Virus record (IMG/VR): IMGVR_UViG_3300034073_004742
Coordinates: 1 to 64,000 of that record
DNA: 64,000 bases
Reading direction: 5' to 3' (one strand)
Source of the DNA: a virus
This document shows positions 1,946 to 33,294 of the stretch, one piece after another. The notes beneath the pieces are model-generated. The model saw only the letters and a list, made by a program, of their open reading frames with translations. It was not told the origin of the DNA and ran no database searches. Position 1 is the stretch's first letter; every line of letters begins with the position of its first letter. The translations under genes and the position numbers were made by a program.

Positions 1946-2120
1946 TTGTCTCCACTACTGTGTTTCCTGGGAAAAAAGTCCTTTGATTACTATCTGTTGC
2001 AACATGACAATTAACGCTTCTGCAACAGCTTACTCTAACTTCTTGGATCTTAGTATATTCTACATTATTAGCTTTAAAGTTTTCGCCCACAGCAACTTGG
2101 TCTAATGTTTTTGTTAACAT
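1938..2120 (-). CDS. Small conserved phage protein, unknown function
   Basis: A 60-residue protein with a LDQVAVGENF opening, an EYTKI segment and a CCRSVNCHVA core. I recall similar small beta-rich proteins in other phage genomes but know no function. It has a GGAGA ribosome-binding site, and its ATG overlaps the last base of the stop of the second polymerase piece. With the exonuclease gene it forms the unit separating two polymerase fragments. Confidence 0.6.
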   Translation of the reverse strand: MLTKTLDQVAVGENFKANNVEYTKIQEVRVSCCRSVNCHVATDSNQRTFFPGNTVVETNG

Positions 2121-3004
2121 TATAGTTCTCCGTTTTTTAGGTATTCTGATACAGACATGATTTTGTCCAAATAAGCGATACCCAATATATCAAATTTAAT
2201 TAAACCCAAACTCTCTAGATCATTCATCTCCATGCCCGCTATCAGCTGATCATTTCTATTATCATAGACCATAGGACACAGAGATGCAAGATCTTCGGTA
2301 CCTATTATTACACCAGCAGCATGTTTGCTTTGATTAGATTTTGTTCCTTCTAGTCTTATGGCCTGTTCAAATCTTTTTGACAATGGACCAGCCAACGAAC
2401 CATCTTCTGCTATGTAGCACCATTCTTTAAGCTTGTCTGTGTTATTCTCTAAAGCCCATCTAATAATCGAGGCTTCTCCGGTATCTTCTTTCATCTCCTG
2501 AAGTTCGTCGGCTATTTTGGCTTCGTCAGGAATAAATTTGGTAATAGAATTCATTTCTTCGAAAGATATATTACCATATACTCTTAGCACATCTTTTAAC
2601 GCCCCTCTACCTTTCATAGTATTAAAAGTAATCATTTGTGATACTTTGCCATGTCCATATTTACTTTTTATATATTCTAATACTTGTTCTCGTTTATCTA
2701 TTGGAATATCTATATCGATATCTGGCATTTGTATTCTGGCTGGAATGCTTTGTATTGGGCGAGTATTATCAAGCTGATCGACAATACCATATATCCACAT
2801 TATATAACTATTAATAGTGTTTTCGGATAAAATATTTTTATTTACTATTATATGATTATAGTATGATATATTTTCTGGAGCCGAAAGAACTATAGAGCAT
2901 TCATGTTCAAGAAATCTATTATTTTTTTCTTGTTCTAACCTTTCGATTATAGGCTGGCTTTTAATCTCATGTACTAGTCTAGTAAGTGTAGAATTTTTTT
3001 CCAT
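2120..3004 (-). CDS. dnaE: DNA polymerase III alpha subunit, central (catalytic palm) piece
   Basis: The 294-residue product carries the catalytic heart of the polymerase: MPDIDIDIP at residues 93-101 holds the paired metal-binding aspartates, and IKFDILGI near residue 269 holds the third. Between them lie QMITFNTMKGRGALKDV and SKHAAGVIIG, also typical of DnaE. The reading frame is the same as in the N-terminal piece (3815-5113), but a homing endonuclease gene in another frame separates them. No ribosome-binding site is seen before the ATG at 3004, and the frame stays open upstream of it, so the true start or a splice junction is uncertain. The piece stops just after the palm. Confidence 0.88.
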   Translation of the reverse strand: MEKNSTLTRLVHEIKSQPIIERLEQEKNNRFLEHECSIVLSAPENISYYNHIIVNKNILSENTINSYIMWIYGIVDQLDNTRPIQSIPARIQMPDIDIDIPIDKREQVLEYIKSKYGHGKVSQMITFNTMKGRGALKDVLRVYGNISFEEMNSITKFIPDEAKIADELQEMKEDTGEASIIRWALENNTDKLKEWCYIAEDGSLAGPLSKRFEQAIRLEGTKSNQSKHAAGVIIGTEDLASLCPMVYDNRNDQLIAGMEMNDLESLGLIKFDILGIAYLDKIMSVSEYLKNGEL

Positions 3005-3792
3005 TTGTAGTCTATATATAAATGATTGTTTAGTAAATATTTTGCTATAACTTTAATTTCACTCTTGTTTTGGTATATTAACTGATATAAGTCTTTATTT
3101 TTTATTTTTGTTGGTTTTTTATATTTTACAGGCAAGGCTTTGGACACTGTTTCCAAATTTTCTGGAAGATATGAACATATACCTATGTTGTAACCAGTGT
3201 AGACTTTATTTTTATTGGTTTGTTTTTTTATACTAACCCATCCATCAGCATCCCAATATCCTCTTATAAAATCTGGCCATAATAATTGATCCGACGGTAA
3301 TTTTAAAGTACTATACCATGTTTTTCTTGGTATAATACCATATTTTGATATATTATTTGCTAAAATATCGCTAGTAAATTGAAATGTACACCTATTATCG
3401 TAGTCTTTTACTATATTAGAGCCTATTAAAAATTTAGAAAATTTAATCAAATGTTTTTTTGATTCTGACCCCAAGCATAATTGTAGCTTATTACTATCAC
3501 TAATATTTCCATCGCCAAAAATAAAACCAAGCCAATAAGCTGATGCGGCATCTAATTTAGAAAAATCATTTAATAATTTTTTTTTACTATTTTTAGTAAA
3601 TCTAGTTGATTTTGCTAAACAACCACAACTTTTAACATGGTTAATCTTTATCATAGATAGTTTCTTATAACAGATATTGCCGCATTTACATTTACACTTA
3701 GCAATTGTTTCTCCTTTACTATCCGGAACTAAAGTTATTATAGTAAGTAAATTATAACTCTTATTTTTATAGTCTTTTATTTTAGTTTTCAT
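2974..3792 (-). CDS. LAGLIDADG homing endonuclease with N-terminal zinc-finger-like module
   Basis: The protein has two LAGLIDADG-type motifs, YWLGFIFGDGN and RGYWDADGW, the hallmark of a single-chain homing endonuclease. The first 60 residues contain a CKCKCGN...SCGC cluster like the small zinc-binding modules attached to phage homing enzymes. I place the start at the internal ATG at 3792 (272 residues) because GGAGG lies five bases before it; an in-frame ATG at 3825 has no such site. The gene is out of frame with the polymerase pieces on either side and runs 31 bases into the downstream one. It also has a GGTGTATAAA promoter-like element just upstream. Confidence 0.85.
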   Translation of the reverse strand: MKTKIKDYKNKSYNLLTIITLVPDSKGETIAKCKCKCGNICYKKLSMIKINHVKSCGCLAKSTRFTKNSKKKLLNDFSKLDAASAYWLGFIFGDGNISDSNKLQLCLGSESKKHLIKFSKFLIGSNIVKDYDNRCTFQFTSDILANNISKYGIIPRKTWYSTLKLPSDQLLWPDFIRGYWDADGWVSIKKQTNKNKVYTGYNIGICSYLPENLETVSKALPVKYKKPTKIKNKDLYQLIYQNKSEIKVIAKYLLNNHLYIDYKWKKILHLLD

Positions 3793-3813
3793 ATTGCCTC
3801 CGGAATTATACTG

Positions 3814-3823
3814 TTTATACACC
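3814..3823 (-). promoter_or_regulatory. Candidate phage promoter element (GGTGTATAAA)
   Basis: On the minus strand this reads GGTGTATAAA and ends 21 bases before the homing endonuclease start. It matches the element repeated before eight other minus-strand genes. It overlaps the last codons of the first polymerase piece, so the endonuclease could be transcribed separately from its host gene. No mapped transcript supports this. Confidence 0.45.
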
Positions 3824-5113
3824 ATTCTTAAATGTTTGTATAGAAAATTCCGGAAAAGATATGTGTTCTTTTACATTCCTGCCATCGGAATAAAATCTTT
3901 CAAATAGTAATTCATGTTTAATAGGATCTATATCTGTAATACCTATTAAATAAGAAACCAAGCATCCGGCTGCGCTTCCTCGTCCTGGTCCTGCTAACCA
4001 ATTATTATTTTTAACATGTCTTAGTATGTCTTGAACAATTAGAAAATAACTACTAAGCCCAGCATTTTGCAAAACCTGTAGTTCATATTTTATTCTATCA
4101 ACATAAATATCGTGTTGTGATTTGTCAATATTCGGTATAATTCTATTTTTCCAACCTTTTCTACATAATTCTCTTAAATATTCATCCGGAGAGAATCCTT
4201 CGGGACATTCGAATTTAGGCAATTTAGGTGGCGATAGTATATCAAAATTTTCTATTAGACTATCCACAAACAAAGTGTTTTCTATCTCTTCGTCATTATG
4301 AAGAGTTTTCATTTCTTCTGGAGACAGAATGTAGTATTTATCGCTTTTAAAGAAACACTCCATAGGCACAGATTGATTATGAAGCATCTTAGTATTTATA
4401 TCTGATAATGTTGTTTTAAGATTATTACAGAGCAATATTCTTTGATCTATAGCATCGTCCTGTTCACAATAATGAGCATCCGGTGTGCATACCGCTTTTG
4501 TTTTACTTAATTCAGAAATTCTTCTTATTGTATCTGTCAAATATGTTTGTTGTTTTAAATATGCTTGATCAAATAGTTGTGTCTCTAGAAAAAAATTATC
4601 AGTGCCAAATATAGTTTTCATATAGTCCACAAAAGATAATCCATTGTCTATAGCTTTGGATTCGTCGCATAATATCTTATCTGCTAATGTTGATCCCAAA
4701 TGTCCACAAATACCTATAATGTTACCATCCAGTATTTCTGCTAATTTAGCCAGGCTTAAACGCGGCTTATGATAAAAGTAATCGGGTCTGTTAGATTCGG
4801 AAACAATCTTTATTAAGGTTTTCCATCCTTGCAAATTTTTCGCCAATACCAAAAAATGTGATAATGAAGCATTTTCTTTTGTTTGTATACTCGGATCATC
4901 TTCACATATATATAATTCACAACCAAGAATTGGTTTTATATTTTTATTTCGCATTTTCTGATAGAACTGTACAGAGCCGGCGATGTTACCATGATCGGTT
5001 AAGGCACAAGAATTAATGCCTAATTTAGAACATCTATTAGCTATTTGTTCTGGACGATTAAGACCATCCAAAAGACTAAAATGCGAATGACAATGAAGAA
5101 CAGAATAGGTCAT
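3815..5113 (-). CDS. dnaE: DNA polymerase III alpha subunit, N-terminal PHP and palm piece
   Basis: The 432-residue piece starts with a complete PHP domain: HCHSHFS at residues 7-13, LTDHGN near 40, a GCE motif, CGHLGS, and TPDAHYC, the usual metal-binding positions. The start of the polymerase palm follows, with GPGRGSAAGC at residues 375-384 and a LLFERF motif. It ends abruptly after KEHISFPEFS, ahead of the catalytic PDIDID motif, which sits in the next fragment. The ATG has an AGGAT ribosome-binding site and overlaps the upstream nuclease stop by four bases. The break coincides with the homing endonuclease insertion. Confidence 0.92.
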   Translation of the reverse strand: MTYSVLHCHSHFSLLDGLNRPEQIANRCSKLGINSCALTDHGNIAGSVQFYQKMRNKNIKPILGCELYICEDDPSIQTKENASLSHFLVLAKNLQGWKTLIKIVSESNRPDYFYHKPRLSLAKLAEILDGNIIGICGHLGSTLADKILCDESKAIDNGLSFVDYMKTIFGTDNFFLETQLFDQAYLKQQTYLTDTIRRISELSKTKAVCTPDAHYCEQDDAIDQRILLCNNLKTTLSDINTKMLHNQSVPMECFFKSDKYYILSPEEMKTLHNDEEIENTLFVDSLIENFDILSPPKLPKFECPEGFSPDEYLRELCRKGWKNRIIPNIDKSQHDIYVDRIKYELQVLQNAGLSSYFLIVQDILRHVKNNNWLAGPGRGSAAGCLVSYLIGITDIDPIKHELLFERFYSDGRNVKEHISFPEFSIQTFKNGV

Positions 5114-7098
5114 ACTGATCCTGGTGCTTTGTAAGATCCAAAAGAATGATTCGGGTGTTTGTACATACTCATTGTAGCATCGATCCCGTAAAGTTCAAGG
5201 TCGTGCTTGACTTGTTCGCACTTTGTCATGACAGATCCTTTTTGACATATTTGTCCATCTCTATATTCCTCCAAAGGTTGTATGCTAGTATTTTCAAAAG
5301 TGGTTTTACCGAAATGGCATAATTTATTACACATCCATGTTTTATTAAGCTTAGGACGTTTTGTTTTCTTAATAATATCAAATTTTTCTCTCAACATATT
5401 TTCTGTGTCTATGAGATCGCTATCATGAAATACCATAGAAAAAGGACCACCATCATTAATAAAGTAGATAGAAAAAATTACATTTTCAATATGCGGATAT
5501 AATTTTTTAATAGCATAGTGATAAATTTTAAGTTGTGGATCTTTTTCTAACTTTTCTTGGGTTTTTTCTTGACCGGTTGCCCAATCTAGTCTTCGTCCAG
5601 TATTATGTGTTGGAATATAATTTTCTGTACACAGATAAGTATTGTCTGGACTGTCTACGGAAATGCATTGAGTTTTTTGTATAATCGATTCTTCTATTTT
5701 AGAAACTCGTCTAACCCTAGATCTTCCAGATCCCCAATTTACATCCACAAGTTCTTTTTTCCTGTTCAATAGAAAAGGATTAATATCAATTGGACGAAAC
5801 GAAATAGGATATATGATTACGTTTTTTTTGTAATTTGTATCTCTTTTAATACACGCTTGATTCGGTCTTTGCCCAAGGGTTAAAAGTAGGTCTTTAACAT
5901 CGTCGGATAGTTTTTTATTACAAGAAGTAAAGATGGTTTGTTTTCTAATTGGATTTACATTTCCGTCTGTATCCATCAAACCCCTTAGTAAGTCTAGTCT
6001 TTGTTGAAAAGATGCTCTCAAATAAATTTTTGGTATATGTTTATTATTCAATAGGTTTAAAGATTTTAGTATTTTTGTCACATTTAGGATCGATACTGTC
6101 TTATTTTTTGATCTTTTATCATTTTGAATTTTTCCTAGCTCATAACCTCTTGCTTGTATTTCTTCAAAAATTTCGATATCATTGCCACTAATCTCGCAGC
6201 CTCTATTTCTTCCGTCTCCTAACCAGACTCCTAATAGATAAGGATCTATTGGTAGGGATTGTTCATTACATTTTAATGGTTTTGTCACATTAATAGTATC
6301 GCCAATAGCTAGATCCTGTATAGATACCGTTTCACCATTAGATAATTTCCATAAATGCTCATCGTCACAAATTACCGATGTTTTGTCATCAAAAGTTACT
6401 CTGAAACATTTTTTTGTTTTGACTTTTGATTTTCCAACAACGCGACATATATTACCGTATTGATCAAAAACATTACATCCCACATTTATATCTGCAATTG
6501 TTGTCCATCCGTCAAGAGTAGGTAATTTTGTATCTAATGGCAATCCTTTCCAATCTATGACCTCAATAGTATTATCATTGGCCAAAGTTATAAGATCTAT
6601 AGTGCCTTTTAAACCCAAATATCCATCTAGTTTTTGATTATTGATATTATACTCGTATTTAGCCCATGGTTTTTCTATTACCAAATCAAAATGTTGTTCT
6701 GGTCTAAGAATTGTGCGATTTCTAGGATCAAACATACCACCATTAAATTCTATAGCCTTGTAAACCCAATTATAGCAGTCCTTATAATCTTTTAGAGTCC
6801 AAGTATGATGACTATTAGCGGTACTATAATGCTTGTATACTTTTTCTATTATGGTATTAAGACTATAGTCGTTTATATCTATAAGACCTAAGAATTCGTC
6901 GTCGTTTATATGAGATAATTTATCTTGCTGACCTTGTTTGATCATAGCAAGAATTTCTAAAACTTTATGGACTATTGTTCCTTTATCCGCCTTTTGTCCA
7001 CTTGGACCCCTCCATCCTAGTACATATTCAAAAAAAAATTGTTGTTCACACATAGAATGGGCATTATAAGATGAACTACGGAAATAAGTTATAATCAT
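5110..7098 (-). CDS. RecB/Cas4-like PD-(D/E)XK exonuclease interrupted by an intein
   Basis: After removal of a 315-residue intein the host protein is about 347 residues. It has a Cys near residue 17, a conserved GTIVHKVLE helix, GTIDLI near 165 and the nuclease motif EVIDWK/TG, the D-(D/E)xK core of RecB and Cas4 nucleases. The intein sits directly after the catalytic Lys. The C-terminal part has a CNKLC...CQKG...C cluster; with the N-terminal Cys it could hold an iron-sulfur cluster as in Cas4/AddB, but that is inference. Its place next to the polymerase and dNMP kinase suggests a role in phage DNA processing or recombination. Confidence 0.85.
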   Translation of the reverse strand: MIITYFRSSSYNAHSMCEQQFFFEYVLGWRGPSGQKADKGTIVHKVLEILAMIKQGQQDKLSHINDDEFLGLIDINDYSLNTIIEKVYKHYSTANSHHTWTLKDYKDCYNWVYKAIEFNGGMFDPRNRTILRPEQHFDLVIEKPWAKYEYNINNQKLDGYLGLKGTIDLITLANDNTIEVIDWKGLPLDTKLPTLDGWTTIADINVGCNVFDQYGNICRVVGKSKVKTKKCFRVTFDDKTSVICDDEHLWKLSNGETVSIQDLAIGDTINVTKPLKCNEQSLPIDPYLLGVWLGDGRNRGCEISGNDIEIFEEIQARGYELGKIQNDKRSKNKTVSILNVTKILKSLNLLNNKHIPKIYLRASFQQRLDLLRGLMDTDGNVNPIRKQTIFTSCNKKLSDDVKDLLLTLGQRPNQACIKRDTNYKKNVIIYPISFRPIDINPFLLNRKKELVDVNWGSGRSRVRRVSKIEESIIQKTQCISVDSPDNTYLCTENYIPTHNTGRRLDWATGQEKTQEKLEKDPQLKIYHYAIKKLYPHIENVIFSIYFINDGGPFSMVFHDSDLIDTENMLREKFDIIKKTKRPKLNKTWMCNKLCHFGKTTFENTSIQPLEEYRDGQICQKGSVMTKCEQVKHDLELYGIDATMSMYKHPNHSFGSYKAPGSV
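5602..6546 (-). mobile_element. Class 3 intein with LAGLIDADG endonuclease domain
   Basis: The intein spans residues 185-499 of the nuclease. It begins GLPLDTKLPTLDGW, so residue 1 is Gly rather than the usual Cys or Ser, and it ends PTHN before a Thr. The three residues that define class 3 inteins are present: Trp two residues after the block B His (EHLW), Cys at the fourth position of block F (QCISVD) and Thr before HN in block G. The endonuclease motifs YLLGVWLGDG and LLRGLMDTDG lie between the splicing halves. The whole element is in frame, with no stops. Confidence 0.9.
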
Positions 7099-26183: not shown

Positions 26184-26874
26184 TATAATATAAACCTATT
26201 TTAAGATTATGATGAGATACTATATATCCAAATATTCTTTCTAAAGAGTGAGTATACGTTCCGTGTTCTTCATTAATTTTATTTTTTTCATTTTTCAGAT
26301 AAGACTCAAGTATCGAATACTGCGGCAGTAATATTTGTTTAAACATATTAGTTTTACTAATAAAGGTTGATCCAGCAAAAAATGGACTATTTTTTAATTT
26401 AGTATAATTTAATTGTAGTAAATTACATAATGTTTTTATTTTATTTATATGTATAGATTTATCATTATTATGTAGTAAATATTTTTTATTTCCTATCATT
26501 CCTATTGTGGGCAATGATAATGTTTTAATAGCGCGATCTACAATAGATGGTTTAAGTAAATGATTTAAATCATATCTCCAATTGGTATTTCCGTATCCCC
26601 ATAAACTTTTTTTACTGTGTGTTTTTATAAAGAATGGTTCGGAGATAGCTTTTAACTGATATAAAAATGGTGCTATATCAGCTCCATAATTTTCATGGAA
26701 ACTTAGAGAATAGTTCCAAGACAAATTAGATAGGTCTTTTAGAATATGAGAAAAATTAGTATTAATACATAATCCTAAATATAATTTTATCTTATATTTT
26801 ATATTTTCAATTAGTTCTTTATACTCGTCCCATAAATCTGTATGATATAGATATAATGCTACAGCAATTTTCAT
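26176..26874 (-). CDS. RgpF-like protein, short paralogue
   Basis: A 232-residue paralogue of the protein at 19824-20783, sharing LYLYHTDLW, ENYGADIAPFL, FIKTHSKKSLWG and HSLERIFGYIV. It is shorter at the C-terminus. It overlaps the triple glycosyltransferase by eight bases and shares one base with the stop of the preceding gene. It probably acts on the same class of glycan. Confidence 0.72.
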   Translation of the reverse strand: MKIAVALYLYHTDLWDEYKELIENIKYKIKLYLGLCINTNFSHILKDLSNLSWNYSLSFHENYGADIAPFLYQLKAISEPFFIKTHSKKSLWGYGNTNWRYDLNHLLKPSIVDRAIKTLSLPTIGMIGNKKYLLHNNDKSIHINKIKTLCNLLQLNYTKLKNSPFFAGSTFISKTNMFKQILLPQYSILESYLKNEKNKINEEHGTYTHSLERIFGYIVSHHNLKIGLYYND

Positions 26875-28451
26875 TACTGGTTAGTTGGTGTTTGGGTAAT
26901 TGTTGGTGTTAATGTGGTGGTAGATGTTGGGGTTATTGTGGGTGTTAATGTGACGGTGGGTGTTGGGGTGGAAGTTTTTGTTACTGATGGAGTAGGAGTT
27001 TGTGATACATTCGGCATTTCTTTTACTAACATAATTTTATCATTGATACGTCCTTCTAAAATAAAACCCTTATATAATACTTTGATGTCATCATTACTAT
27101 AAATATTAGGATTATATTGTAGTTGTCCAATTTTAAATGTATCACATAGAGCTTTAGTAGAAGTAGGAGTTGGAGTATATGTTGGTGTTGGTGTTGGCGT
27201 GTGAGAGGATGTAAAGCTTACTGTGGGTGTTGGTGTTTGAGTTCTAGTAACCGTTCTAGTGGGTGTTTTTGTAGGTGTACGAGTAGGAGTTGATGTTTTT
27301 GTTTGAGTCGGAGTTTGAGTATTTGTAACAGAAGGCGTGAGTGTGGGTGTTGGGGTAGCGCTTGCTGTAAGAGTTGTTGTTGTGGTTAATGTTGGTGTAC
27401 AAGATGGAGTTAAGGATGGGGTTGTTGAAGGAGTGGGCGTTGGACTACTTGTTATACTTGGTGTGGGTGTTGGGCTAAGACATGCTCCAGGACTACCAAA
27501 AGTATTGTTTGCTATTCCATTATTAACATTAACTGTTATAGAGTATGGTTCTGTGTCGCTTTGTGTAGCATATAGCCAATATCCACCTGTTCCATTTTTT
27601 GTTGGATCATAATAGGCTGCTTTTACCCACTCATCACGATCAGGAATCCAATAATATGTTTTATTTGAGGCTGTTGGTTTAACAAGAGGATTAGTGAAAT
27701 TAAGAGAATATACCCCTGTTTCTGTCGAATTTACTGCTAGGCCACCGCTGTTAGGCTTGCTATTACTTAACCAATTAATATATCTAGCCGCGCTATACCA
27801 GTTAACAAAATTAACTGGTTTTTTAGCCATATTATCTTTAACAGTATATACTATAGGATTAGTACCTGTTACTACTATACCACCTCGAATATTTGTGGTC
27901 ATAGAACCTATATATGGCCATATACTATTAGCTGGTACCGCCAAAGCATTATTTAAAGCAGGAACTCTTGCCACATTATTTAAAAATAAGACATATTCTT
28001 CATTTGTTATAGTAAATTTAGATATTTTATATTCATAATTAACTTGTCCAAGATCATCTCCATAATGATTTCTATTTGTGTCTCCAATATTAGAACCAGA
28101 TACTGTTACAAAGTTACTATCTGAGATACCAGAATTTGCACAAACTCTAAATCCGAATCCTGGTCCTGTGTTTCTTATATCTATAGTGAAACCATCGATA
28201 CTTATTAGGTCTACTAATCTTGAATTATAAGAACCGCCGTAATATAATATGCTTTGCGATGATGGTATTTGATAATCTATAATTTCCCATACATTGCCAT
28301 TTTGATCGAATGTGCCATAAAAACTAGATTTGCCGTTTCCGCCAACACTTGTAATATTACCATTATTATCTATGGTTGATGGCCATAAAGCCGTACTATC
28401 ATAGTTTGCACTATTACAATTTCCTAATACAGAATATTCTGGAACACTCAT
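26874..28451 (-). CDS. Circularly permuted formylglycine-enzyme-like domain with Pro/Thr-rich tail
   Basis: The first 325 residues match a formylglycine-generating-enzyme/SUMF1-type domain, but in swapped order. The part that normally ends the domain (GTFDQNGNVWE ... GFGFRV) comes first, and the part that normally starts it (FTITNEEYVLFLNNV ... PVNFVNWYSAARYINWL ... IPDRDEWVKAAYYDP) follows. A Pro/Thr linker of about 110 residues, a small domain (FKIGQLQYNP ... EGRINDKIMLVKE) and a second Pro/Thr tail finish the 525 residues. No signal peptide is seen. A carbohydrate- or receptor-binding virion protein is likely, by analogy with C-type-lectin-fold phage proteins. Confidence 0.75.
   Translation of the reverse strand: MSVPEYSVLGNCNSANYDSTALWPSTIDNNGNITSVGGNGKSSFYGTFDQNGNVWEIIDYQIPSSQSILYYGGSYNSRLVDLISIDGFTIDIRNTGPGFGFRVCANSGISDSNFVTVSGSNIGDTNRNHYGDDLGQVNYEYKISKFTITNEEYVLFLNNVARVPALNNALAVPANSIWPYIGSMTTNIRGGIVVTGTNPIVYTVKDNMAKKPVNFVNWYSAARYINWLSNSKPNSGGLAVNSTETGVYSLNFTNPLVKPTASNKTYYWIPDRDEWVKAAYYDPTKNGTGGYWLYATQSDTEPYSITVNVNNGIANNTFGSPGACLSPTPTPSITSSPTPTPSTTPSLTPSCTPTLTTTTTLTASATPTPTLTPSVTNTQTPTQTKTSTPTRTPTKTPTRTVTRTQTPTPTVSFTSSHTPTPTPTYTPTPTSTKALCDTFKIGQLQYNPNIYSNDDIKVLYKGFILEGRINDKIMLVKEMPNVSQTPTPSVTKTSTPTPTVTLTPTITPTSTTTLTPTITQTPTNQ
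26880..27470 (-). repeat. Pro/Thr-rich coding repeats in the permuted-domain protein
   Basis: Two blocks (about 26880-26995 and 27165-27470) encode imperfect TPT, TPTPT and TKTPT repeats. On the plus strand they appear as repeated GGTGTTGG and GGAGTT hexamers. Similar blocks occur in four other genes of the window. Confidence 0.8.
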
Positions 28452-29576: not shown

Positions 29577-31040
29577 TTAAGAACAACTATAGTTACTATT
29601 TATTGGTCCATTACCATTAACATCGGCAGTAACACATGTTGGATCGGTGTCACTTTGAGTGGCATAATTCCAGTATCCTGCGTTAGTACCGCGGCCTTTG
29701 TAATAAGCCGCTTTGTACCATTCATTTTCACTAGGAATAAAATAGTTAGCATTAACATTACGAGTAATACTCACTCCAGAAGTTGCTCCATTTAGAGTAT
29801 AAGCTCCGTCTTCGGTAGTAGTATTATCTTGGTTTCCAGAGGACTTACCATTATGTAACCAGTTGCAATATCTTGCACAATCAAACCAGCTAACATAAAC
29901 TACGGGTTTGTTCCCCATATTGGTCTTAACGGTGTAGGTATAGCTTCCGCTAGAACCAGATCGAGTTATGCCGCCTCTAGCACCGCTATCCATATTTGTA
30001 TTGTATAAATTGTAAGTATCAGTACTCGCTACTGCGTTAAGAAATTCCGCATACTCACAATTGGTAACATGATATTGAGCAATACTATACACATAGTTTA
30101 CGATTCCATAACCAGTACTATCAGCACTATTATAAACATCACCAACACTAACAAAATATGAAAGAGATAAAGGGTTAAGGGAACTTGCAAGACGAAAACC
30201 GAGGTAGATGTTTTCAACCAACGGGAGGTCTGCGGCACTACTGGAGGACGACACGCTGGACGCGCTGGCGACCCCCCAGTTGCCGCCCCGAGCAACACGA
30301 GACGAGCCTGTAATAGCTTCGGTCCAATTCCACACATTTCCGCTCTGGTCATATGTTCCATAAGCACTTGGCCCGCCATTACTTCCAACGGTTGTAACAT
30401 TACCATCTTGACCATTCCAATCAGCGCAAATGTTAAAATTAGCACTATTGGCCCCTATTGGAAAAGGCGGAAGTGTTGGCGTAGGGGTTATCGTTGTAGT
30501 AGGAGTTGGCGTAATGGTGTTGGTTGGCGTGTTAGTAGGCGTAATGGTGTTGGTTGGCGTGTTAGTAGGCGTAATGGTGTTGGTTGGCGTAATGGTGTTG
30601 GTTGGCGTAATAGTATTGGTTGGCGTAATAGTGTTGGTAGGTGTAATAGTTGAGGTCACTGTATTTGTTGGAGTAACGCTATTTGTTGGAGTAGGAGTAT
30701 TCGTCTCGGTAGTAGTTGGTGTTGCTGTAGGTGTTGATGTAGCCGTATTAGTCGGAGTAACTGTTGGTGTAGCCGTATTAGTCGGAGTAACTGTTGGTGT
30801 AGCCGTATTAGTCGGAGTAACTGTTGGTGTAGCCGTATTAGTCGGAGTAACTGTTGGTGTTGTTGTTGGAGTAATACTACTGGTAGGAGTAACGGTGTTT
30901 GTTGGAGATACCGATGGCGTAACCGACGTTGTCGGGGTAATAGTTGGAGTTGTGCTATTTGTCGGAGTTATACTCGGCGTGATCGTCGGCGTGGGGGAAG
31001 GTATGATAGGACAACATTTAATATTAACAATATTTTTCAT
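29577..31040 (-). CDS. Pro/Thr-stalk protein with circularly permuted formylglycine-enzyme-like head
   Basis: Residues about 15-190 are a Pro/Thr-Asn stalk (repeats such as [10 protein letters not shown]). The rest is a formylglycine-enzyme-like domain in permuted order: [26 protein letters not shown] and the GGNW...GFRLAS segment come first, then [55 protein letters not shown] and [12 protein letters not shown]. The end INSNYSCS would join the domain's beginning in an unpermuted protein. The segment between GNW and GFR is very GC-rich and resembles a hypervariable region. Likely a virion or surface adhesin. Confidence 0.78.
30190..30310 (-). other. GC-rich segment resembling a diversity-generating variable region
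   Basis: This segment encodes the stretch from GGNW to GFRLAS, which is the position diversified in C-type-lectin-fold targets of diversity-generating retroelements. In 30241-30300, 43 of 60 bases are G or C, against an AT-rich surrounding. Many codons are NNC (GTC, GCC, AGC, TCC, GAC, CTC, ATC, TAC), as expected from adenine mutagenesis of AAC codons. No reverse transcriptase or template repeat is seen in the window. Confidence 0.45.
30511..30860 (-). repeat. 30-base in-frame repeats encoding the Pro/Thr stalk
   Basis: A 30-base unit at 30511-30540 recurs exactly at 30541-30570, with shortened copies to 30660. A different 30-base unit occurs as three perfect copies at 30751-30840, with partial copies on both sides. 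Each unit encodes ten residues such as [11 protein letters not shown] very similar unit is found at 40021-40140 in another gene. Confidence 0.85.
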
Positions 31041-31347: not shown

Positions 31348-33294
31348 TTATGAAGATAAATAATCAAAACCATAGTCTGGTAATTTTTGTAATGGAAATC
31401 CATCAAAGTCACTAAAAGCGTATGCTCCATTACCTTTTAACATACCGGCTGCTACATCTGCTTTTATTAAAAATGATCCGTTTGGAATAGTGTCCCATTC
31501 AGGATGTCCTCCAGAGTTCCAACTATTCCCACACCAAACAGCCCTTCCGTTTCTTCTAACATACATAATATGATTAGGAATAGTAGCACAATATATTTTA
31601 CCATTATAAGGTAATAATATTGGTTTTGTTCCATTATGTTCTCTTGGTGTTAGTGAAATTTCTTTTATATTAAGTCTATATTCTTTATGTCTAGTTATAT
31701 TTTTATGACCATTTTTTCCATTATCTCTACCAATACGATCAACCTCTATTATATCTGCGGCTAATCCTATTTTTAGTATTAGTTCTTGCATATCATCTGC
31801 TAGTTTTTTTGAGGATGTATAATAATTAATTTTACCATTAGACCTAGAACCGTCTCCTAGCATCATAGCATCAAAAAATATTTTTTGTTGTCTTGATGAC
31901 AAATTTTTTATATAGTCTGGGATATATTTTTGATGAGCTTTACCATAAATTTTCAATTTATTATATAAGTTTTTGTCATAAGACACCATATTCGAAGAAA
32001 ATCTAAATGGTAGCTTATTTATACAATTTTGTATTATTTCTCTTGATTCTTTTTTATTCTGACTTATACCAACTAATCCATAATATTTAATATCTCCATT
32101 AGACATTACTTTTTTATGATTACAAGTATGTCCTTCAGAAATAAAATATCCTAAAAATTCTAACCATAAGTCCATAGATATAATATTTGAGCCTATTTTT
32201 ATATTCTCGACTTCTTCCCCTTTCCATTTTGCATTTTTTTTAATATGAATATATTTAGGGCAATTTTGTGATTCTATTAATTGCCAAGAATCAATTTTAT
32301 CTAAATCAGAATTTAACTTACCAATATACATATTATGATTATCTGTAACTAATAAATCTACTCCTCTAAAATGATAATGATTTAAATAGCCATTATAATC
32401 ATACTCAAATTTTTGTTGAATTTGTTGCCACTCTAAATAATGATTATTTGGATTTAATGTTGCTAATATGTCAGTGTCTGTTAAGTTTTTAAATAATTTC
32501 CATCCTGTTTTAGTAAGCACTTCAGTATCGTCTGAATAACAACCCCAACTATTTTGTACTAAAAACGCTGGTTCACTACCAGTATCATCACAAGCAATCC
32601 AGGCCATAGCGTGAGCCCAAGAACCTTGTGGTTTAGCAAAACCCTTATTATCTCTTTTATTACTAAAACCATACATACTACAAACACTAATACCATAACC
32701 ATTAGCTAAGGCATCTCGTGCTTCTTCTACTGTTCTTACTAAACTAACAGTTTTTACTTGATGATCATTAGCTAAATCTATAACTTTATCTGGTAGTCCT
32801 CGTCCTCCCCAACCAGCACCTAGCATACCTTGATATTTTGTTAAATCTATAACACCCTTATAATCTTTTCTGACTAAAACTCCACCATACTTACTTACAA
32901 ATTCTGCTGCTCTAGCACAACTCATACCCTGACCACCATGTCCTCTTGCTCCATAAATAGCTTCTGTTGCTCCTCTTGCTATCCATGCTTCTCTATTTCT
33001 CTTAACATCTATTTCTACAGCACGAGTAACATCTACCGCATTACGGGTAGAGTGGCTAACACAGTCACTCGTCACCTGACGCTCATTATATGGATTCTTA
33101 TCAAACTTCAAAACACTTTTGTATGGAGTAGATAGTTTACCCTTGCCTGTCCCAACTATTCTTTTTGCTCCATCACCAAAATAAGCATATTTAGAAACTT
33201 CTAATAAATGATCAAAAATATGCTGTTCCCACAAGCACCCTTGAAATCCATCCTTATAAAGTTTGTATAATTGTTCTGGTGAGTATCTAGCCAT
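31348..33294 (-). CDS. Papain-like (C1) cysteine peptidase interrupted by an intein
   Basis: Without its 339-residue intein the protein is 309 residues. It has a catalytic Cys in SDCVSHS (residue 78), the catalytic His in WAHAMAW (residue 228) and the Asn motif QNSWG (residues 247-251), as in C1 peptidases. The intein splits the Asn motif right after NSWG. There is no signal peptide or propeptide that I can identify. Its place among membrane and holin-like genes suggests a role in virion maturation, host entry or release; the substrate is unknown. Confidence 0.85.
   Translation of the reverse strand: MARYSPEQLYKLYKDGFQGCLWEQHIFDHLLEVSKYAYFGDGAKRIVGTGKGKLSTPYKSVLKFDKNPYNERQVTSDCVSHSTRNAVDVTRAVEIDVKRNREAWIARGATEAIYGARGHGGQGMSCARAAEFVSKYGGVLVRKDYKGVIDLTKYQGMLGAGWGGRGLPDKVIDLANDHQVKTVSLVRTVEEARDALANGYGISVCSMYGFSNKRDNKGFAKPQGSWAHAMAWIACDDTGSEPAFLVQNSWGCYSDDTEVLTKTGWKLFKNLTDTDILATLNPNNHYLEWQQIQQKFEYDYNGYLNHYHFRGVDLLVTDNHNMYIGKLNSDLDKIDSWQLIESQNCPKYIHIKKNAKWKGEEVENIKIGSNIISMDLWLEFLGYFISEGHTCNHKKVMSNGDIKYYGLVGISQNKKESREIIQNCINKLPFRFSSNMVSYDKNLYNKLKIYGKAHQKYIPDYIKNLSSRQQKIFFDAMMLGDGSRSNGKINYYTSSKKLADDMQELILKIGLAADIIEVDRIGRDNGKNGHKNITRHKEYRLNIKEISLTPREHNGTKPILLPYNGKIYCATIPNHIMYVRRNGRAVWCGNSWNSGGHPEWDTIPNGSFLIKADVAAGMLKGNGAYAFSDFDGFPLQKLPDYGFDYLSS
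31525..32541 (-). mobile_element. Class 1 intein with LAGLIDADG endonuclease domain
   Basis: The intein covers residues 252-590 of the peptidase. It starts CYSDDTEVLTKTGW (nucleophile Cys 1), has a VTDNHNMYI block B, endonuclease motifs FLGYFISEGH and FFDAMMLGDG, and ends MYVRRNGRAVWCGN before Ser. The penultimate residue is Gly, not His, as in many phage inteins ending GN/S. Splicing would restore the NSWG active-site motif, so peptidase activity depends on it. Confidence 0.92.

Follow-up and report, generated by a model that had tools for sequence, protein, structure and literature searches.

The 64,000-nucleotide stretch of viral DNA analysed here (the window; positions 1 to 64,000 of IMG/VR record IMGVR_UViG_3300034073_004742, 77,698 bp in all) almost certainly encodes a class 3 intein with a LAGLIDADG homing endonuclease, placed directly behind the catalytic lysine of a phage Cas4/RecB-like nuclease. 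The observed basis of this reading comprises the sequence, the predicted fold, the class signature, empty sites in relatives, purifying selection and a recent transfer with co-conversion-like tracts. The whole precursor is a 662-residue ORF on the minus strand (5110 to 7098), made up of an N-extein of 184 residues (6547 to 7098), an intein of 315 residues (5602 to 6546; 945 nt; ORF residues 185 to 499) and a C-extein of 163 residues plus the stop (5110 to 5601). The intein begins with GLPLDT after EVIDWK and ends with PTHN before TGRRLDW, and the boundaries and motifs that the preliminary description had given for it, next to the catalytic Lys of the nuclease, proved exact to the base. It is the kind of intein published in cluster C1 mycobacteriophages, and as such a sound and largely expected finding.

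The joined exteins match PF12705 (PDDEXK_1) with an E value of 2.5e-16. They contain a PD-(D/E)XK set with QxxxY, in which H44, D168, D182, K184, Q522 and Y526 are invariant across 10 aligned precursors. The N-extein contributes Cys17, His44, Asp168 (in GTID) and, within EVIDWK, Asp182 and the catalytic Lys184, and the C-extein contributes Gln522 and Tyr526 of QxxxY together with Cys590, Cys594 and Cys627, so that the intein lies between Lys184 and QxxxY, directly behind the lysine. The four cysteines (C17, C590, C594, C627) are also invariant in the 10 rows and, by analogy with Cas4/AddB-type nucleases, are likely Fe-S ligands. The Pfam match and the invariant motifs bear out the earlier view of the host as a RecB/Cas4-like nuclease interrupted at its active-site Lys. 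They support a Cas4/RecB-like PD-(D/E)XK nuclease, as judged from its sequence, and Cas4 proper is not claimed; with the CRISPR Cas4 model TIGR00372, scanned with the intein in place, the score is 22.7 bits, below the cut-off of 65. The gene sits in a replication module with a dNMP kinase, a primase, a DnaB-like helicase and DNA polymerase III alpha. Searched on its own, the nuclease extein finds nothing in the GenBank phage set at an E value of 1e-5, and the nuclease is therefore without a close cultured relative in that set; the 619 phage matches arise through the intein part.

The insert is absent from many relatives. The 78 viral loci that are related to the precursor divide into 34 with the intein and 44 that encode the nuclease without it. 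In these 44 contigs the insert is cleanly absent exactly at the DWK|TG junction, where most read DWK|TGKRLD or a near variant. Deleting the insert from the window's own precursor raises the PDDEXK_1 score of the host from 46.5 to 60.8 bits. A phmmer search of the PDB returned the class 3 DnaB intein of M. smegmatis (6bs8, E 1.7e-13), followed by that of M. chimaera (6rix, 5.6e-12) and then gp41-1. Together, the PDB matches, the clean empty sites and the gain in host score exclude a chance origin. The Pfam model Intein_splicing (PF14890) has no match anywhere in the virus record, which indicates that this general profile misses the intein class and is not counter-evidence.

Motifs, PDB relatives, alignment, tree and predicted fold all contribute to the class 3 assignment. 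The class is defined here by the WCT set, following Kelley 2016 (PMC5050341) and PMC7664689. Residue 1 is Gly (6544 to 6546, minus strand, as are all positions in the precursor), hence there is no Cys or Ser nucleophile at that position. The signature motifs are DEHLW, QCIS and PTHN, and motif reading and alignment place their key residues in the columns of the set: Trp66 at block B position 12 (6349 to 6351), Cys294 at block F position 4 (5665 to 5667), which is invariant in the alignments and is the proposed first nucleophile, and Thr313 at block G position 5, within the terminal Thr313-His314-Asn315 (5602 to 5610), whose Asn would cyclise. The first C-extein residue is Thr500 (5599 to 5601), the candidate second nucleophile from the sequence. 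In 28 other phage inteins aligned with it, Trp occupies B12 in 27, and Cys at F4 and a terminal THN are present in all 28. The class 1 sequences in the same alignment, Npu DnaE (checked against the PDB) and Mxe GyrA, have Asp or Ser at F4.

The tree and the fold agree with this signature. The preliminary description had expected a family-wide alignment to place the intein in the class 3 clade, and the splicing-domain tree does so, grouping it with class 3 inteins of TerL and DnaB (support 97/93). All class 3 rows stand apart from four class 1 inteins with a modest support of 83/60, because the class 1 branches are long. The splicing-domain tree was used because very long branches made a full-length intein tree with the Npu and Mxe class 1 outgroups unstable. 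The model of the intein alone (mean pLDDT 89.1) superimposes on PI-SceI over its entire length (Z 26.0, 312 residues) and, in its splicing domain, on the class 3 intein 6bs8 (Z 21.2, rmsd 1.5 Å, 124 residues); the model of the full precursor is weak (pLDDT 68.6). The intein is, from its predicted fold, full-length, with a HINT splicing domain and a two-motif LAGLIDADG endonuclease. The endonuclease domain, a point absent from the preliminary description, spans approximately intein residues 96 to 278 (5713 to 6261) and is identified by PF14528, a PI-SceI-like fold (Z 26) and purifying selection. Its two motifs, LLGVWLGDG (6211 to 6237) and LLRGLMDTDG (5962 to 5991), were located by sequence and alignment, and both end in acidic residues as in a LAGLIDADG enzyme.

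The signature, together with studies of other class 3 inteins (PMC5050341, PMC7664689), leads us to infer that the window intein follows the class 3 pathway. Cys294 would attack the bond between Lys184 and Gly1, and the N-extein would then be carried as a branched thioester at block F until Thr500, at +1, takes it over. Cyclisation of Asn315 would free the intein, and an acyl shift would form a native Lys-Thr bond, so that DWKTG is re-created and the nuclease becomes active. The unspliced nuclease is plausibly inactive, since a 315-residue domain follows its catalytic Lys. The endonuclease, in turn, may cut inteinless alleles at the codons of DWK^TG, after which repair of the cut allele would copy the intein and some flanking DNA into it.

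Comparisons of alleles show sequence patterns of this kind. The window and locus L009 are 96 to 99% identical from about −1.05 kb through the end of the intein, whereas on either side of this tract identity is about 80%; dS between them rises from 0.03 in the intein to 0.14 in the N-extein and 1.05 in the C-extein. The occupied locus L007 and the empty locus L035 are 98.99% identical over 6155 bp, and 14 of their 62 differences lie in a 90-bp segment that includes the site (hypergeometric p about 1e-13), in a comparison of site flanks that leaves aside L004, L008 and L009 as out of register or diverged. The two patterns are those expected from homing with co-conversion, although general recombination could mimic them. 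On the basis of these allele comparisons, with their co-conversion-like scars, the intein has moved recently. The two pairs, one occupied and empty (L007/L035) and one recently exchanged (window/L009), are natural allele pairs for the study of class 3 homing and co-conversion. Both domains of the intein are under purifying selection, with dN/dS well under 1 (about 0.08 to 0.27 in the splicing domain and about 0.04 to 0.28 in the endonuclease domain). The same precursor also occurs at 99% identity on a Lanier contig (L095) assigned to the Alphaproteobacteria MAG bin LLD_269, which is probably a phage contig inside a bacterial bin.

These data bear on three other readings of the insert. It could be a degenerate intein or a bacterial-intein-like domain that has lost splicing and now either cleaves or remains in the protein, and eroded endonucleases do occur in the same family: L031 (264 aa) has LGDS, and L033 (239 aa) lacks most of the first motif region. 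Such erosion is what the decay phase of the homing cycle usually brings. Against a loss of splicing stand splicing-block residues that are invariant across relatives 48 to 78% identical over the whole precursor, a dN/dS of about 0.1, and an interrupted nuclease that is otherwise conserved with its motifs intact, which make this reading very unlikely. Less credible still, to the point of being scarcely tenable, is a class 1 or class 2 intein using residue 1 or direct attack by the +1 residue. The HINT fold is common to class 1 inteins, but Gly1 is found in every close relative, the block F Cys and block B Trp are invariant among them, and the nearest solved relatives are class 3. The class 3 reading, already proposed in the preliminary description, is thus upheld by the W/C/T set, the lack of Cys or Ser at residue 1, the nearest solved structures and the splicing-domain tree.

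The third reading makes the intein a regulated switch that keeps the nuclease inactive until splicing is induced by a cellular cue. Its position directly behind catalytic Lys184 and ahead of QxxxY would suit such a role, and a mycobacterial DnaB intein has been reported to act as an oxidative stress sensor (PMC6195587). However, most relatives are free of the intein (44 of the 78 loci), and the mobility signature accounts for its position without any benefit to the host, so that a switch is improbable, if less so than the two readings above. The preferred reading remains that of a mobile class 3 intein, from which we infer its splicing chemistry, the activity of its endonuclease and the inactivity of the unspliced nuclease.

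Class 3 inteins in nucleases of this type have been described. In cluster C1 mycobacteriophages, Kelley et al. 2016 (PMC5050341) reported 40 Cas4/RecB-like exonucleases that contain an intein, with a single insertion site in the PD-(D/E)XK motif, and assigned the C1 inteins to class 3. The rarity implied when the preliminary description gave DnaB and terminase genes as the main class 3 hosts is therefore not supported. The intein of the C1 phage Pleione (gp218; VELK^S...THN^T) shares with that of the window its class, a Cas4/RecB-like host and an insertion in the PD-(D/E)XK motif. It differs in having Ser rather than Gly as residue 1, in being only about 30% identical as an intein, in the wide divergence of its host nuclease and in its separate position in the tree. 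The Cas4 family exonucleases of the Fromanvirus mycobacteriophages Traft412 and Zeeculate (VVDYK^GLDLDT...PTHN^TG) are closer, with the same site, a class 3 signature and about 42% intein identity; their records annotate these proteins only as exonucleases, and the neighbourhood of the host gene is different. M. smegmatis DnaBi1 (6bs8) and M. chimaera DnaB1 (6rix) resemble the window intein in the sequence and fold of the splicing domain and in the WCT set, but are mini-inteins without an endonuclease, in DnaB. The phage TerL inteins (ECD7, Synechococcus B23, Clavibacter CN1A, Thresher) are likewise class 3 with LAGLIDADG and 31 to 36% identical to it, but lie in another host gene, several of them inserted after GK before Thr or Ser, as in the ATPase P-loop.

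At least five further nucleases, which have diverged widely, carry an intein at the same catalytic (D/E)xK^T position (DxK in these). They are found in Traft412, Zeeculate, Pseudomonas phage Rollin, Streptomyces phage Frankenweenie, the gut phage MT835539 and a gene of a Nonomuraea fuscirosea genome, and Pfam recognises only some of those tested. Their inteins and that of the window form one branch, with a weak support of 86/87, and the published C1 intein falls outside it; forcing one clade that includes the C1 intein is mildly rejected (AU p 0.03). These two results suggest that the codon of the catalytic Lys was probably colonised at least twice. It is possible, though we rate it somewhat below even, that one class 3 lineage is specialised on the Lys^Thr codon of PD-(D/E)XK nucleases and has crossed between diverged nucleases in phages of unrelated hosts, the C1 lineage having arrived independently. 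The range of class 3 inteins at the catalytic Lys of nucleases is widened beyond C1 mycobacteriophages to include uncultured phages from other lineages. That diverged nucleases are hit repeatedly at one catalytic codon is relevant to the question of why inteins come to lie in active sites.

DNA polymerase III alpha is encoded on the minus strand (2120 to 5113) in two ORFs, 3815 to 5113 and 2120 to 3004, separated by a LAGLIDADG ORF (2974 to 3825) just before the catalytic PDIDID motif. The polymerase is uninterrupted, as a single ORF, in L009 and L036, and L017 has the same split at 55 to 70% identity, including an 88-residue N-terminal extension whose dN/dS is about 0.34. Rfam models match no intron around the interruption, even when the threshold is permissive, and it looks as though a homing endonuclease had turned the polymerase into genes in pieces. 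Between about +2400 and +2700 from the intein start, the identity of L007 to the window drops from 97 to 99% to 80 to 87%. The drop adjoins the polymerase insertion, which L007 does not carry, and suggests that this insertion also moved with flanking DNA.

A second intein in the window (31348 to 33294, minus strand) is class 1-like, with Cys1, a GN^S end and a LAGLIDADG domain, and interrupts, at QNSWG^SWN, a protein that has a papain-like motif. Pol III alpha of L019 (9105 to 12175) carries a class 1-like intein as well (GPGRG^C...HN^SAAG), which is probably a split intein since it lies in two ORFs about 0.8 kb apart. Finally, two minus-strand ORFs of the window (26874 to 28451 and 29577 to 31040) contain FGE-sulfatase domains, which are formylglycine-generating-enzyme-like.
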